Shown: positions 28,236 through 46,334 of the stretch, piece after piece
Position numbering within the stretch: the first letter of the stretch is position 1
How the letters are laid out: every line of letters begins with the position of its first letter
Source of the DNA: a virus
IMG/VR virus record: IMGVR_UViG_3300022752_000116
Coordinates: 1 to 47,434 of that record
DNA length: 47,434 nucleotides
Strand: one strand, 5' to 3'
The notes under the pieces: generated by a model
Databases searched by the model: none
What the model was told of the DNA's origin: nothing
What the model saw: only the letters and a program-made list of their open reading frames with translations
Made by a program: the position numbers and the translations under genes

Positions 28236-29114
28236 TTAATCTTGTGCCAACTTGGCAAAATATGCCATGTCATCTTCATCGGCCATTTCCATTTCAGGTT
28301 CAGCCACAGGTTTCTTAGGTGCAGACTTCATCTGTTCAACAGTAGTCTTAGTGACAGGTTTCTCACCATTCAACCCTAGGACCTTTTCCAAACGGTCTTT
28401 CAACGCATCATAGGTCTTGAATTCTTTATCAGCAACCAACTCTGATAAAGCGTGTTCAGATTTCCAAACCTTTTCAAGTTCATCATCGTCATCCAACAAT
28501 GCTGATGGAGATTCAAATTCAGACTTGTCATAGTTTTGGTAACCCTCAACTTTACGAATCTTCAACTTGAAGTTAGCACCTTTCCACAAATCAAATGGAT
28601 TGATTGCTTGTTCATCAGCAAACTGAGGATTCATTGCTTCGGTAATCTTATCAAAGATTTTCTTACCGAATTTGAACAACATCACTTTACCTTCATTCTC
28701 AGGATGTTTTGGATCACTGACAATGTATACGTTAGCAACATAATTCAATTTACGCTTTTGTTTGCGTACAATTTCTTTGTTAGCTTCAATGCCTGAATTC
28801 CACAAAGTAGAATTGTGTTCACACACAGGACATTGTTGATTCTTAGTTGTCAAACAGTTGTCAATAAGCCAACCGCCTGGTCCCTGGAATCCATGACCAA
28901 AGATTTTAACCCAAGGCAAACCATCTTCACCATCGGCTGGTGATGCGGGTAAGAATCGGATTATTGCGTGGCCGTTCCCTGCTTTGTCAACTTCGGGACG
29001 CCAGAATTTCTCTTTGTCGGAGGCACCTTCTGATGAAGCGTTGAGTGCTTCTACGGCTGTTTTGAGTTTGTCCAGATTGCCTGAACTCTTTTTCATTTTT
29101 GAAAAATCTACCAT
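28236..29114 (-). CDS. 32: single-stranded DNA-binding protein gp32
   Basis: 292 residues (T4 gp32 is 301). The OB-fold core carries the zinc ligands His74, Cys87, Cys95 and Cys98 (spacings 13-8-3; T4 13-10-3) within FGHGFQGPGGWLIDN and CPVCEH. The N-terminal basic segment MVDFSKMKKSSGNLDKLKTA mediates cooperative binding in the family, and the acidic tail AEPEMEMADEDDMAYFAKLA is the protein-interaction domain. It coats ssDNA in replication, recombination and repair. AGAAAGG precedes the ATG, and a consensus sigma70 promoter lies upstream. It is followed by a strong terminator, giving a defined high-level transcript. Confidence 0.95.
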   Translation of the reverse strand: MVDFSKMKKSSGNLDKLKTAVEALNASSEGASDKEKFWRPEVDKAGNGHAIIRFLPASPADGEDGLPWVKIFGHGFQGPGGWLIDNCLTTKNQQCPVCEHNSTLWNSGIEANKEIVRKQKRKLNYVANVYIVSDPKHPENEGKVMLFKFGKKIFDKITEAMNPQFADEQAINPFDLWKGANFKLKIRKVEGYQNYDKSEFESPSALLDDDDELEKVWKSEHALSELVADKEFKTYDALKDRLEKVLGLNGEKPVTKTTVEQMKSAPKKPVAEPEMEMADEDDMAYFAKLAQD

Positions 29115-29194: not shown

Positions 29195-29691
29195 AGCCAA
29201 ACTTTCAACATTGCCAAGGTGGCCGGCACATTATTATGCCAAATTGCTTGACCACCTGCTCTACGCCAATCATCAATAACACTTACAGTATCATCAATAA
29301 TCAATGCAGTCGGTTCAGCAAACTTATATTTCAGTTGTTTACCTGGAACAAAGTTTTGCTTGAATGTAATACCATGAGTTTTAAGCCATTCTTCTTTCTG
29401 TTCTTTAATGGTCTCATGTCGTTTTTCGGATGCTGTAGATGAAAGAATTTCAGTTACGATACCATATTCTTCATACAATTTTTCTAGTGTATGAATTAAT
29501 GTTATTGAACCTTCCATCATATTCAAGTCGGCAAAGTTTCTGCCTTCAATAAATTTATCAAAGTTTTTGTAGAATGTTTTTGTCTTATCATCACGTTCTG
29601 GTAATGAATCAAACAATTTCTTGTATCTATCTTGAAAGTCACAGATTACGCCATCTAAATCTAAATAAATTTTTGTAATTTTCATTGACAT
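29191..29691 (-). CDS. HAD-superfamily phosphatase/5'-nucleotidase-like
   Basis: 166 residues. Motif I is DLDGVICDF near the N-terminus. A later Ser (ILSSTASEK) fits motif II. Lys residues around FVPGKQLKYKF and the acidic ALIIDDTVSVIDDW match motifs III/IV. Such small HAD proteins act on nucleotides or nucleic-acid 5'/3' phosphates, but the substrate is not visible. It lies between gp59 and gp32. Two starts are possible: ATG at 29691 inside the gp59 end, or ATG at 29685, which overlaps the gp59 TGA as ATGA and is favoured. Confidence 0.82.
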   Translation of the reverse strand: MSMKITKIYLDLDGVICDFQDRYKKLFDSLPERDDKTKTFYKNFDKFIEGRNFADLNMMEGSITLIHTLEKLYEEYGIVTEILSSTASEKRHETIKEQKEEWLKTHGITFKQNFVPGKQLKYKFAEPTALIIDDTVSVIDDWRRAGGQAIWHNNVPATLAMLKVWL

Positions 29692-30293
29692 AATTCTTTA
29701 ATACTTTCTTTAAGAATAGTTTTAAACTTCTCTTTATCGTACTGAATGAAAGGTTTATATCTCAAACATTTATCTCTATATGTAGGCCATATAATATCAT
29801 CTGATATCTTTTTGTTCCACATAGGAAAGAAATTCATAATGTCATCAAGTATCACCAATGTTTCAATACAAATCTTGTGTTGCTTTGCACCAAGTAACAA
29901 TGCAGGATATCCATTTGATGGTACTTTGATAAGTTCATCTGGATTATCCGCCTGTTCTAAGATACGTATTATATCTTGTTCAAACTCATATGTCAAGCGC
30001 TGGTTTCTTTTTTGCCATCCTTTGTAGTTTTCTTCACCTTCGGCATTCGCAATATCACCAACCCAATTTACATCCTTAACCAAAAAATTGGAGACATAAA
30101 AGTCCCTTAGGTCTTGTAGGTTGTATTTTCTGGAAAGGCGATAGAAAGTATATTTGTCCTTTCGGTTGGCAAAAGTATCCTTTGAGATATTGGTTTTACC
30201 GTTGTAACGGAAAAAATCGTAACTATCAGAAGTAAAATGTAATTTTACACTTTGAAAAAGTTTATAAGCTTCAAAACCAGTTGTTTCAGTCAT
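29682..30293 (-). CDS. 59: DNA helicase loader gp59
   Basis: 203 residues (T4 gp59 is 217). The shared pattern is FEAYKLFQSVKLHFTSDSYD, NRKDKYTFYRLSRKY, LRDFYVSNFLVKDVNWVGDI and the C-terminal ILDDIMNFFPMW and WPTYRDKCLRYKPFIQYDK. These line up with T4 gp59 segments such as KRRDKYFFQKLSEKY and DAWIGDI. gp59 loads the gp41 helicase on gp32-coated DNA. The order gp33, gp59, gp32 is that of T4, with a HAD gene added. Confidence 0.85.
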   Translation of the reverse strand: MTETTGFEAYKLFQSVKLHFTSDSYDFFRYNGKTNISKDTFANRKDKYTFYRLSRKYNLQDLRDFYVSNFLVKDVNWVGDIANAEGEENYKGWQKRNQRLTYEFEQDIIRILEQADNPDELIKVPSNGYPALLLGAKQHKICIETLVILDDIMNFFPMWNKKISDDIIWPTYRDKCLRYKPFIQYDKEKFKTILKESIKELCQ

Positions 30294-30366: not shown

Positions 30367-31041
30367 ATGATTATTTATTCACCAAAAAATCCACCACCAA
30401 ATTCATATGTTTACAGTTATTTACGTGAAGATGGTACACCATATTATATTGGTAAAGGTCAAAAAAAGAGAGCTTGGTTGAAAACCAAAAGTGAAATTAA
30501 ACCACCAAAAGATAAATCTAGAATCATAATTATTGAAAGTAATTTAACCGAAGTTGGTTCGTTGGCATTGGAAAGAAGATTGATTCGTTGGTATGGAAGA
30601 AAAGACAAAGGTACAGGCATACTTAGAAACAAAACTGATGGTGGTGATGGAATTTCAAATTATAAGCACACCGAAAGTACTTTGAAAAAGATTTCTGGTA
30701 TTAATAGTGTACATTTTGGTAAAACTCCCTGGAATAAAGATAAAATTGGTTTACGTGGTTATAAGATAAAAAATACAGAAAAAATGCATGGGCCTATAAC
30801 AGAGGAACACAAAAGAAATATATCTTTAGCTAGAAAGGGTATAATTTTTTCAGAAGAACATAAGAAAAATATTTCTTTAGGTAAAAAAAATAAATCTTGT
30901 GTAAAAAACAGAAAAAAAATTATGACGCCTAATGGAGTATTTAACTCAATCACTGAAGCTTCTGAATATTATAAATGCAATAAATCAAATATCTCATATA
31001 AATTAAAAACAAGAACCGATTATTATTATCTCAAAGAATAG
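30367..31041 (+). CDS. GIY-YIG homing endonuclease (copy B, divergent subfamily)
   Basis: 224 residues. The catalytic domain begins [20 protein letters not shown] (GIY-YIG motif as YVY...YYIG) with Arg in KKRAWL and Glu in [13 protein letters not shown], ending [13 protein letters not shown]. Two or three NUMOD3-type repeats follow ([31 protein letters not shown]), then a C-terminal helix-turn-helix-like [20 protein letters not shown]. It differs from copies A and C in the nuclease domain yet shares their leader. It is inserted on the plus strand between gp33 and gp59, and its 3' end overlaps the gp33 3' end by 11 bases. Confidence 0.92.
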
Positions 31042-32136: not shown

Positions 32137-32580
32137 TTAGAAACCTACTTTAACTCCAGCGGTAATAATGTTACCATTGAAAGAGTTAACGCTGCTTTGG
32201 CCATATTGACGGTCAATTGATAAACCAGCAGTTACATTTTTTACAACTGGAACAGAAACGCCAGCGCCAACAGTCATGGCATAACCATCAGAACCTGTTT
32301 GGTTATTCAAGTATGCTGCACCAACACGAGCACTAACAGAAACAAAACTTGTTTTAAAAACATCATATGATGCAGTGATGCCAAATTTGTTTTGGTCATT
32401 GTCGCCTTTTGTGAAACGAGTGAAACCTGCTTCTAATCCTACTGGACCAAATTTATCACCAGCCACAAGGCTGTAACCTGTACGGTCAGTAGCTTTGTCT
32501 TGTACTGCATTTACACCAACTTCAACAGCAGATGCAGAAATAGCCAAAACGGCCAATGTCGAAAAAATAACTTTTTTCAT
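32137..32580 (-). CDS. outer-membrane beta-barrel protein (OmpX/Lom-like size)
   Basis: 147 residues. Signal peptide MKKVIFSTLAVLAISASA, then alternating amphipathic strands: TGYSLVAGDKFGPVGLEAGF, FGITASYDVFKTSFVSVSAR, VGAAYLNNQ, YAMTVGAGVSVPV, TAGLSIDRQYG and a final IITAGVKVGF. The C-terminal Phe is the classic outer-membrane insertion signal. About 127 mature residues fits an 8-stranded barrel such as OmpX or lambda Lom. AAGGAG precedes the ATG. A phage-coded porin-like protein might alter surface receptors or permeability during infection; this is inference. The gene lies just downstream of the tmRNA. Confidence 0.82.
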   Translation of the reverse strand: MKKVIFSTLAVLAISASAVEVGVNAVQDKATDRTGYSLVAGDKFGPVGLEAGFTRFTKGDNDQNKFGITASYDVFKTSFVSVSARVGAAYLNNQTGSDGYAMTVGAGVSVPVVKNVTAGLSIDRQYGQSSVNSFNGNIITAGVKVGF

Positions 32581-32603
32581 AATAACTCCTTATAATTAAT
32601 AAA

Positions 32604-32638
32604 ATGGTAATTTGATTCTGTTACGAGGACAAACTACC
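32604..32638 (-). terminator. hairpin at the 3' end of the tmRNA transcript
   Basis: Minus strand TGGTAGTTTG pairs with CAAATTACCA (10 bp, one G-U) across a 15-base loop, followed by TTTTATTAATT. It follows the tag stop codon by about 20 bases and may act as terminator or as the 3' structural element of the coding piece. Confidence 0.55.
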
Positions 32639-32919
32639 AAAAACCCTAGCAACCTTTAATTAGGCAGCAATGCGGTAACTTTCGTCATTTGCATTTATTT
32701 TGATTTAGTTTTAACATCTTCTCTGATGGGTAGCCAATTAGTTTACTGGTTTGTCAATCGAAACTGGTTCATCCCCATCAGAAACATACTGCACTAGCCA
32801 GTTGAATACAGCCGACCAATCTTCCTTATCAGTGAAGCGCAATATATTTCTGGTGGAGATGGCCGGTACTGCCCCGGCGTCTTGCCAACTTTTCAAAAAA
32901 TCAGTTTACTACCATTTTA
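32604..32919 (-). ncRNA. ssrA: permuted two-piece tmRNA
   Basis: Reading the minus strand: the acceptor piece comes first, with T-arm GCCGG-GGCAGTA-CCGGC (32877-32861), 3' acceptor strand CATCTCC, then ACCA ending at 32850. After a 74-base intervening segment the coding piece starts at 32775 with GGGGATGAACCAGTTTCGAT, the tmRNA 5' signature. GGGGATG pairs with CATCTCC over 7 bp and places a G-U at position 3-70, the alanine identity element. At 32691-32659, after AAAATAAAT, the tag frame GCA AAT GAC GAA AGT TAC ... TAA encodes ANDESYRIAA. Acceptor-before-coding order is the circular permutation known from alphaproteobacteria, some betaproteobacteria and cyanobacteria. It would rescue stalled ribosomes and tag products for proteolysis. 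I did not resolve the P2 helix or pseudoknots. Confidence 0.9.
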
Positions 32920-32925
32920 GATTCA

Positions 32926-32954
32926 CATTATACATTAAAATATTTATCTTGGCA
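32926..32954 (-). promoter_or_regulatory. sigma70-type promoter for the tmRNA
   Basis: Minus strand TTGCCA at 32954-32949, 17-base spacer ending TG, TATAAT at 32931-32926. The -10 is perfect and the -35 matches 5 of 6. Predicted start is near 32919, about 40 bases before the T-arm. Confidence 0.75.
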
Positions 32955-32962
32955 AGACTTAT

Positions 32963-34611: not shown

Positions 34612-35265
34612 TTATTTTTGCTCTTTATAAAATTGAATTGCTTTTACTAGACCATCTATGTGGTCTTCCGTTTTTTCAATAAACAAGCCAGGTGGTTCAT
34701 TATCAATCGCCATAATAGTCACCAGCTGATTGATAGGTTGACCAACCAATTCTTCATACATCAACGAATATGCTGTTTCCTGCCAAAAATAATCTAAAAT
34801 ATCATCACGTTGCTTAATTCGTTTAGAGGTCTTAAAGTCAATGACTGAAAGAATACCATCAAACTCACCAATACAGTCAACACGACCTGCAAGACCTAAT
34901 TGTTCGGACCATAGTGCCTGTTCCTGATAATGTATATTGTCAATTCTGTCAAGTAATGGTACCAAAGCAATAAACATCTCTTTGGCGTCCGGCATAATGT
35001 CACCTAACTTATCGTTATTTAGGTATCTTTCGCACAGAGTATGCACATTAGTACCACGGGAACTTGCCTGTTTAGAGATTTTGTTTGCTGCTTCTTCACC
35101 CACACGTTTACGCCAAGCCATAATAGATGCCTTTTTTTGAGCACCAATGACTGTCGTTACAGATGGGAGTTTATTACCTGCTGGTGTTACATAGTAACGT
35201 TTGCCATCAGGAAATGTTTGTGAAGTTAAGTCTGGTAATACTTTAGGTGGACAATATGTGAACAT
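34612..35265 (-). CDS. PD-(D/E)XK (RecB/Cas4-like) exonuclease
   Basis: 217 residues. The nuclease signature is Glu79-containing HTLCERYL, GRVD at 127-130 and the DFK triad at 143-145 in LSVIDFKTSKRI, followed by the QETAYSLMYEE helix. This matches the RecB/Cas4/MGME1-like fold common in T4-like aquatic phages, expected to degrade or process DNA ends in recombination or host DNA recycling. It is sandwiched between two glycine-rich fibre genes, an odd location for a nucleic-acid enzyme. Confidence 0.85.
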   Translation of the reverse strand: MFTYCPPKVLPDLTSQTFPDGKRYYVTPAGNKLPSVTTVIGAQKKASIMAWRKRVGEEAANKISKQASSRGTNVHTLCERYLNNDKLGDIMPDAKEMFIALVPLLDRIDNIHYQEQALWSEQLGLAGRVDCIGEFDGILSVIDFKTSKRIKQRDDILDYFWQETAYSLMYEELVGQPINQLVTIMAIDNEPPGLFIEKTEDHIDGLVKAIQFYKEQK

Positions 35266-38089: not shown

Positions 38090-38725
38090 ATGGTAAACAA
38101 TTTATATTTAACTAGATACAAAAAATTAATAAATCATTATAAAAATACAACAGTTGATGGATTTTATGAAAGACACCATATTATTCCAAAATGTTTGAAT
38201 GGCACAGATGAAAAAAATAATCTAGTAATGTTACCAACTAGAGTACATTTTATTGCTCATGCTCTATTACACAAAGCATATCCCAAAGAACTAAAATTAG
38301 CTCAAGCATTTGGTATGATGGTTGCATCAAACAAATATCATAAAGGAAGAAAATATCATTCTCGCCTATATGAAATGTCCAAATTGGCCAGATCCAACGC
38401 CATGAAAGGTGTTCCTAGGCCTGAATGGGTAAAAGAAAAATTAAGAGTGCCAAAATTAAACAAAGAAAATTATAAAAAACCAAAGTCAAAAGAACATTCA
38501 AAAAACATATCAAAAAGTTTAACTGGTAAAAAGAAAACTCAAGAACACATCAACAATTTAATTCAATCACAACGAGCATTTCAAAAAAGCAGAACACAAG
38601 AAATGTTAAAAAAGAAAAAATTATATCGTGAATTATTTGTTAAATCAAATATGGCCAGAAAAGAATTTGCAGAATCTCAAAATATACCTATAGGCACTAT
38701 GAAAAGATATTTGCAAGGACTTTAA
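38090..38725 (+). CDS. HNH homing endonuclease with NUMOD3 repeats
   Basis: 211 residues. HNH core at residues about 25-62: YERHHIIPKCLNGTDEKNN then LVMLPTRVHFIAHALLHKAY, with the paired His and the Asn expected for the beta-beta-alpha-metal fold. NUMOD3-type helices follow (SKEHSKNISKSLTGKKKTQE), and the C-terminus FAESQNIPIGTMKRYLQGL looks like a helix-turn-helix. It is on the plus strand inside a minus-strand early gene block, between the DKH-motif protein and small membrane genes, with its own late promoter. Confidence 0.9.
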   Translation: MVNNLYLTRYKKLINHYKNTTVDGFYERHHIIPKCLNGTDEKNNLVMLPTRVHFIAHALLHKAYPKELKLAQAFGMMVASNKYHKGRKYHSRLYEMSKLARSNAMKGVPRPEWVKEKLRVPKLNKENYKKPKSKEHSKNISKSLTGKKKTQEHINNLIQSQRAFQKSRTQEMLKKKKLYRELFVKSNMARKEFAESQNIPIGTMKRYLQGL

Positions 38726-41818: not shown

Positions 41819-42394
41819 TCAAACCTCCACAAATTTCAATTTCCAACCTTTATGTTGTTTTCTTTTACCACGTAAAACTGCATAAAGATGACTTCTGTTC
41901 AAATTATTATCAATACAGAATTGTTTTAGATTATGTACCATAATTATTTTACCATTATACTCTAGTCTATGTTCCTTGGCAAGTGTATTTGAAATTTTCC
42001 TTTTTGTTTCCTGAGGAATTGATTTACCATACCAAAATCCTTTTTCACCTTTTTGCTCTTTGGATTTCTTTTTTCTATATTCTTCTGAAGGAATCCATCC
42101 TAATGTACCATCACCACCAAGTGTTTCATTATATCCATTCAAATATGAATTATATTCATTGATAAAATATGATTCCATTACATTCAGACAATGTTTTCCA
42201 TCTTTCGACTGATATATAACTTCCCATTCAAAATTTTCCCATCCATATTTGTTGAATGCTAAATAAATTTTACTTTTTCTTGATTTCAAATAATGTTTGT
42301 GTTGGTTTTTTCTTCTTGGCCACTGTGAATCAAATCCAATGTAGTTTTTACCATTGATTTTGTTTGTTATCTTATATATTGAATAAATAGGCAT
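41819..42394 (-). CDS. GIY-YIG homing endonuclease (copy C)
   Basis: 191 residues. Catalytic domain MPIYSIYKITNKINGKNYIG, FDSQWPRRKNQH, YGWENFEWEVIYQS, NVMESYFINEYNSY and LGGDGTLG closely parallels copy A (residues 1-95 largely the same), so the two are paralogues. The C-terminal DNA-binding part differs: KKKSKEQKGEKGFWYGK, SIPQETKRKISNTLAKE, and a final helix-turn-helix-like FCIDNNLNRSHLYAVLRGKR. Inserted in the same direction as its neighbours, between the phosphoesterase and a small gene whose ribosome binding site it supplies. Confidence 0.92.
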   Translation of the reverse strand: MPIYSIYKITNKINGKNYIGFDSQWPRRKNQHKHYLKSRKSKIYLAFNKYGWENFEWEVIYQSKDGKHCLNVMESYFINEYNSYLNGYNETLGGDGTLGWIPSEEYRKKKSKEQKGEKGFWYGKSIPQETKRKISNTLAKEHRLEYNGKIIMVHNLKQFCIDNNLNRSHLYAVLRGKRKQHKGWKLKFVEV

Positions 42395-45770: not shown

Positions 45771-46334
45771 TCAAATACCGTCTGGTGGCAATACCTGATG
45801 TTTTTTTACACATTTATCATTATGATATCTACCAATATTACCTGGATTGGTTTCAAAACCACAATGAACACATTTTATTCTTTTGGATTTCATGGATTCG
45901 GAAATTAATTTCTTTTTTTCTAAACTCATTGGCTTGGACCATTTATATCCACCTAAACCAGTTTTACCTTTATTCCAAGGTTCTTTTCCTGTTTTATCAA
46001 ATGCCTTTAACCAATTTTCCCTAGATTCACCTTGAATATCTGGTCGTCCAGATTTACTTCCACCAGAACCACCTTTGTGTGAATTATATTTCGGTTTAAG
46101 TTCTTCAATCCAATATATTTCTCTTTCATCCAACAACTCCTTAGAATCCACAGTTTCAATCAATTCAATTTCAAAATTAACATATCCATGATATCTCATG
46201 GCATTGTGCAAATGATAATTTGAACCGTGATTGGCTGTATTTCTATGATTTCTCATTCTTTTCAACAAATCTTTTGTTGTTTGGCCGATATAAAAATCAC
46301 CATTGATTTTGTTAGTTATCTTGTAAATGTGCAT
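45771..46334 (-). CDS. GIY-YIG homing endonuclease (copy D) with zinc finger
   Basis: 187 residues. The catalytic domain starts MHIYKITNKINGDFYIGQTT, with Arg in KRMRNHR, HGYVNFEIELIETV, and Glu in DEREIYWIEELKPKYN, ending GGSGG. A NUMOD-like linker (PWNKGKTGLGGYKWSKPMSL, EKKKLISESMKSKR) leads to a zinc finger CVHCGFETNPGNIGRYHNDK plus Cys. It is a different lineage from copies A-C. It lies between the CobS-like and winged-helix genes, same strand, with a late promoter inside a hairpin just upstream. Confidence 0.92.
   Translation of the reverse strand: MHIYKITNKINGDFYIGQTTKDLLKRMRNHRNTANHGSNYHLHNAMRYHGYVNFEIELIETVDSKELLDEREIYWIEELKPKYNSHKGGSGGSKSGRPDIQGESRENWLKAFDKTGKEPWNKGKTGLGGYKWSKPMSLEKKKLISESMKSKRIKCVHCGFETNPGNIGRYHNDKCVKKHQVLPPDGI

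Follow-up and report, generated by a model that had tools for sequence, protein, structure and literature searches.

Two-piece tmRNAs have already been described in phages. The case of phage Melnitz appeared in a 2022 paper whose survey of phage genomes counted 53 two-piece tmRNAs, with marine or aquatic phages accounting for 50 of them (PMC9004378). A model for the permuted form, RF04321, was published in 2025 together with a database holding 79 phage tmRNA sequences (PMC11915505), and phage tmRNAs had been listed before that in PMC4131195. Given the publications of 2022 and 2025, the gene considered here is not the first of its kind; the new detail is that its sequence suggests recombination between two related phage versions.

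The gene lies in an IMG/VR virus record of 47,434 bases, the whole of which was analysed and is referred to here as the window. The window carries T4-type genes for gp32, gp59, the baseplate wedge and hub, tail tube, head closure and PhoH, and its baseplate, tail and replication genes bear out the T4-type phage named in an earlier note on this DNA. The baseplate wedge protein is nearest, at ~41% identity, to those of the Pelagibacter phages HTVC008M and Mosig and of the Methylophilales phage Melnitz. The window phage may be of freshwater origin, going by some of the IMG/VR sample numbers of its relatives.

The ssrA gene of Melnitz (MZ577097, 45984-46436) is permuted like the window gene, and shares with it the GGCAGTA T-loop, an AA-ending tag and a position between a PDDEXK exonuclease gene and gp33/gp59/gp32. 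However, the Melnitz gene matches alpha_tmRNA, whereas the window gene scores best with beta_tmRNA, and its tag is ANDNYVPVDYALAA instead of ANDESYRIAA. Also, a glutamine riboswitch match lies directly behind the Melnitz tmRNA, whereas cmscan gives no riboswitch match in the window. The genes of Mosig (MT647606) and HTVC008M (NC_020484) are likewise permuted and occupy the same slot, but differ from the window gene in their T-loops (TGCAACT and TGCAATA, respectively) and tags (GEDNFALAA and ANFNEYALAA, respectively), and neither has DNA similarity to it by blastn. No DNA match to the window gene was found among phage records. The Melnitz and Mosig genes are annotated; that of HTVC008M (NC_020484.1, ~145,161-145,370; L413 13162-13371) is detected by both cmscan and ARAGORN and is absent from the record annotation.

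The slot order of PDDEXK exonuclease, tmRNA, gp59 and gp32 is common to the window phage, Melnitz, Mosig and HTVC008M, and shows that the tmRNA gene stays beside DNA-replication genes. Mosig additionally features a manA RNA motif (RF01745; L414 8165-8372) between genes of the gp59 and gp32 region. Four genes of the window have homing-endonuclease or GIY-YIG matches (30367-31041, 38090-38725, 41819-42394 and 45771-46334), one of them near the tmRNA.

Structure and conservation of the permuted gene

The minus strand at 32,600-32,959 is a complete circularly permuted tmRNA gene, as the earlier note had proposed. When the whole window was searched with cmscan, RF04321 tmRNA_permuted matched 32913-32660 on the minus strand with 120.4 bits (gathering 47, E 4.5e-23) over its full length (model 1-213 of 213), placing the acceptor piece before the coding piece with a spacer between them. 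RF01850 beta_tmRNA matched 32952-32600 on the same strand with 96.9 bits (gathering 84), and RF01849 alpha_tmRNA was also above its cut-off (86.3 bits, gathering 50).

ARAGORN reports no tmRNA in the window, nor in the scanned close relatives of its gene, and detects the tmRNAs of Melnitz, Mosig and HTVC008M. The GGCAGTA T-loop is ruled out as the cause of this miss, since ARAGORN detects other genes with the same loop, including that of Melnitz. This indicates that a beta-like branch of phage tmRNAs is overlooked by ARAGORN, on which the 2022 count (PMC9004378) was based. The present finding extends phage two-piece tmRNAs to this branch of the Melnitz/HTVC008M-like phages.

Table 1. Features of the tmRNA gene and of its slot (window positions)
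Feature	Position	Strand	Basis
PDDEXK exonuclease, conserved upstream neighbour of the tmRNA slot	34612..35265	-	
Promoter-like site, sigma-70 type, TTGCCA-17-TATAAT	32927..32955	-	sequence, sister locus L005
Acceptor piece: P2 5' strand, T-arm GCCGG-GGCAGTA-CCGGC, acceptor 3' strand CATCTCC + ACCA	32851..32913	-	sequence, Rfam
Intervening segment of 74 nt between the mature pieces, predicted to be excised	32777..32850	-	comparison of relatives
Coding piece: GGGGATG, D-arm-like region, P2 3' strand, first hairpin, tag frame, terminal hairpin (3' boundary approximate)	32606..32776	-	sequence, Rfam
Stretch of 57 nt identical in the window, L008 and L483; holds the mosaic junction	32675..32731	-	
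Tag reading frame, GCA resume codon to TAA, ANDESYRIAA	32660..32692	-	sequence, Rfam
3'-terminal hairpin GGTAGTTTG / CAAATTACC, conserved loop TCCTCGTAACAGAAT	32606..32638	-	Rfam, covariation
gp59 helicase loader, conserved downstream neighbour	29682..30293	-	
gp32 single-strand DNA-binding protein, conserved downstream neighbour	28236..29114	-	

The features of the gene and its slot are collected in Table 1. The acceptor strands GGGGATG and CATCTCC-ACCA form 7/7 pairs with G3-U70 and a CCA end; this pairing, the T-arm and the tag with its stop had all been named in the earlier note and can be read directly from the sequence. The tag frame is open from the resume codon GCA at 32692 to the TAA stop at 32662-32660 and ends in Ala-Ala. 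Its last residues are RIAA, as opposed to ALAA in close relatives, and the ends RLAA and AIAA occur elsewhere. Both predicted ends that face the intervening segment had been located in the earlier note, but each was one base off (32850 instead of 32851, and 32775 instead of 32776). The intervening spacer is of two dissimilar types according to subgroup, and the mature pieces that flank it are conserved. The 17-spaced promoter claimed upstream corresponds to a promoter-like site with 11/12 matches at 32955-32927, which makes it the top site of the region, and the sister locus L005 has perfect hexamers (TTGACA-17-TATAAT).

Eleven relatives from IMG/VR were found first (L001-L011), and 10 of them contain the whole gene, at 6-35 bits above the beta cut-off; the remaining one, L006, is truncated by its contig end. 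The acceptor stem varies on both strands with G3-U70 retained, as in L485 (GGGCCTG/CAGGTCC) and in further stem types, although the listing demanded 6/7 pairs and is partly circular as evidence of conservation. The tag is in frame with an AA end across relatives. Related phages thus keep both the G3-U70 acceptor and the AA-ending tag, the conservation for which the earlier note had proposed a check.

The hairpin that had been described as lying downstream of the gene exists at 32638-32606, but it belongs to the tmRNA itself, since it falls inside the RF01850 match and its arms covary. For the same reasons it is ruled out as a terminator, and no terminator-like site was found on the minus strand in a scan of the region. 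Across 134 loci, which were fetched largely via an exact match to the loop and a short upstream stretch and not via arm pairing, there are 29 distinct arm pairs with 23 distinct 5' arms. Pairing is complete over 7 positions in 28 of the 29 (mean 6.97/7), whereas re-dealing the arms lowers the mean to 4.90, with a maximum of 5.52. Furthermore, few or no shuffled sequences fold as well as the terminal hairpins. The conserved 3' hairpin region is therefore present, as judged on the terminal hairpin.

T-loop, subtype and relationships

A scan of the collection turned up the T-loop GGCAGTA adjoining CANCTCCACCA in at least 117 contigs from bacteria and at least 120 from viruses, which rules this loop out as a novelty. 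Among the matches listed, the bacterial contigs are mainly from Pelagibacteraceae and other Alphaproteobacteria, and also from Saccharibacteria. The exact loop occurs in at least 75 bacterial and at least 103 viral loci among those read as permuted; since that loop served to retrieve both sets, the counts speak of presence and not of frequency. The consensus T-loop of alpha_tmRNA reads GGCgGUA. The earlier note had mentioned similar T-loops in alphaproteobacterial permuted tmRNAs, and the contig scan and this consensus show this to be correct. The Saccharibacteria contigs with the GGCAGTA pattern include L019 and L020, and the tmRNA of L020 is of the standard form. A permuted tmRNA with the alpha-type GGCAGTA also occurs on a large gammaproteobacterial contig from a Sinobacteraceae MAG (CAIJRD010000002.1; L067 728-917).

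The window gene has an alpha kind of T-loop and scores higher with the betaproteobacterial permuted tmRNA (RF01850), its best subtype model, than with the alpha model, whose lower cut-off it exceeds by the larger margin. The beta-type bacterial genes L415 and L452-L454 feature the canonical T-loops TTCGATT, TTCGACT and TTCAATT, which differ from the GGCAGTA of the window. Judged from sequence, the window clade combines a beta-like overall score with an alpha-like T-loop. In a tree built with FastTree from 91 permuted tmRNAs, this clade lies within a large group of viral genes that is joined to these beta-type bacterial genes with a support of 0.99, and Melnitz groups with alpha-like viral genes. 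The alignment is short (247 columns) and several deeper branches have support <0.6, and the broad placement alone is meant.

No close host tmRNA was found by DNA in a class sample of 369 genomes, and a search of 150 genomes of the betaproteobacterial order, run without a positive control, gave no DNA match. The sole strong bacterial DNA match is to the Sinobacteraceae MAG gene mentioned above, whose 31-nt acceptor arm is identical to that of the window, while the remainder is dissimilar. Acetobacter malorum LMG 1746 has two permuted tmRNA genes on separate contigs (L251 on C9 and L256 on C54), both above the Rfam cut-off.

Mosaic structure and possible exchange of modules

The window gene is identical to L008 over all 205 tRNA-like positions and the next 57 (205/205 and 57/57), after which only 46/69 positions agree. 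This identity spans 262 nt, from the tRNA-like domain to tag codon 6. The comparison with L483 gives 113/205, then 57/57 and 69/69, so that the last 126 nt are identical, and L484 is identical to L483 over the part compared with the window. The switch of identity from L008 to L483 around the shared 57 nt places the junction within 32731-32675, right behind helix P2. With the switch, the tag end changes from ALAA to RIAA and the hairpin arms are exchanged for another matching pair.

Directly behind the tmRNA, 32137-32580 encodes a protein of 147 aa that has a signal-peptide-like start and no confident family match. This gene has a 77% match in L483 and none in L008, and beyond it the window is again L008-like, with genes at 85-99%. 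Apparently, the gene was exchanged together with the 3' module of the tmRNA. It is unlikely that the 3' third of the tmRNA gene is an assembly chimera and not a real recombinant, even though the junction falls within 57 nt that are repeated exactly in both parental types, a length able to mislead an assembler, and all source sequences are metagenomic. The 3' module occurs in two further contigs, L483 and L484, and there are two junctions, as the downstream gene is L483-like and the sequence behind it L008-like, which a single assembly error does not yield.

The circular permutation makes the tRNA-like domain one 5' block and the tag with the terminal hairpin one 3' block. The phages of this group may swap these contiguous blocks independently by single crossovers, the window gene being a caught example, a proposal that we make tentatively and rate at slightly under an even chance. 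In exploratory correlations over loci that had been retrieved with a pattern from either module, 77 distinct genes of the beta-like viral set gave a rho of 0.79 between similarity upstream of the T-arm and similarity at the 5' end of the coding piece, and a rho of 0.43 between the latter and the adjacent tag region. Most of the fetched pattern was excluded from this comparison, and bootstrapping puts the difference at 0.24 to 0.49. The difference is small in the bacterial set (0.02 to 0.17) and reversed in the alpha-like viral set (-0.25 to -0.03), in which modular exchange is thus unsupported. These correlations lend exploratory support to an independent exchange of both modules that would be limited to the window's own group. 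If true, tags and tRNA-like domains would be reshuffled among phages, and the mosaic makes such modular swapping testable.

Function and alternative readings

Its sequence makes it quite probable that the window gene encodes a functional two-piece tmRNA of a phage related to HTVC008M, Mosig and Melnitz, although the departure of its RIAA tag end from the ALAA of close relatives counts against this. Following general tmRNA biology, transcription would start from the host-type sigma-70 promoter, and host tRNA-processing enzymes would cut out the 74-nt segment that separates CCA from GGGG, leaving two pieces held together by the acceptor stem and P2. The RNA would be charged with alanine by host AlaRS via G3-U70. 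No SmpB was recognised among the scanned genes of the window, so host SmpB must serve; it would bring the RNA to stalled ribosomes, where ANDESYRIAA would be added. With the breakdown of host DNA and mRNA during infection, ribosomes would be kept recycling for phage translation, and the phage would most likely benefit because ribosomes stalled on broken mRNAs are rescued while the host is shut down.

Alternatively, the phage RNA could be a decoy that, when charged or bound by SmpB, mainly titrates host trans-translation or redirects tagging. The tmRNA of mycobacteriophage DS6A consists of a tRNA-like domain only, and inhibition of tmRNA has been reported for a similar molecule (PMC4131195; PMC11915505). 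However, the window gene has a full reading frame, a resume site and a 3' hairpin with compensatory changes, and a decoy would need less, which makes this reading improbable. Although ssrA is a common integration site and such an origin has been discussed for Melnitz (PMC9004378), a non-functional relic of a host ssrA, acquired by imprecise excision or transduction, is very unlikely given that the stems covary and the slot is common to divergent phages, and moreover the gene is complete and no integrase was recognised among the scanned genes.

Among other viral permuted tmRNAs, L148, L155 and L176 have long candidate tags, such as ANRKALGFADLTVGMSKMRLAA (22 residues).
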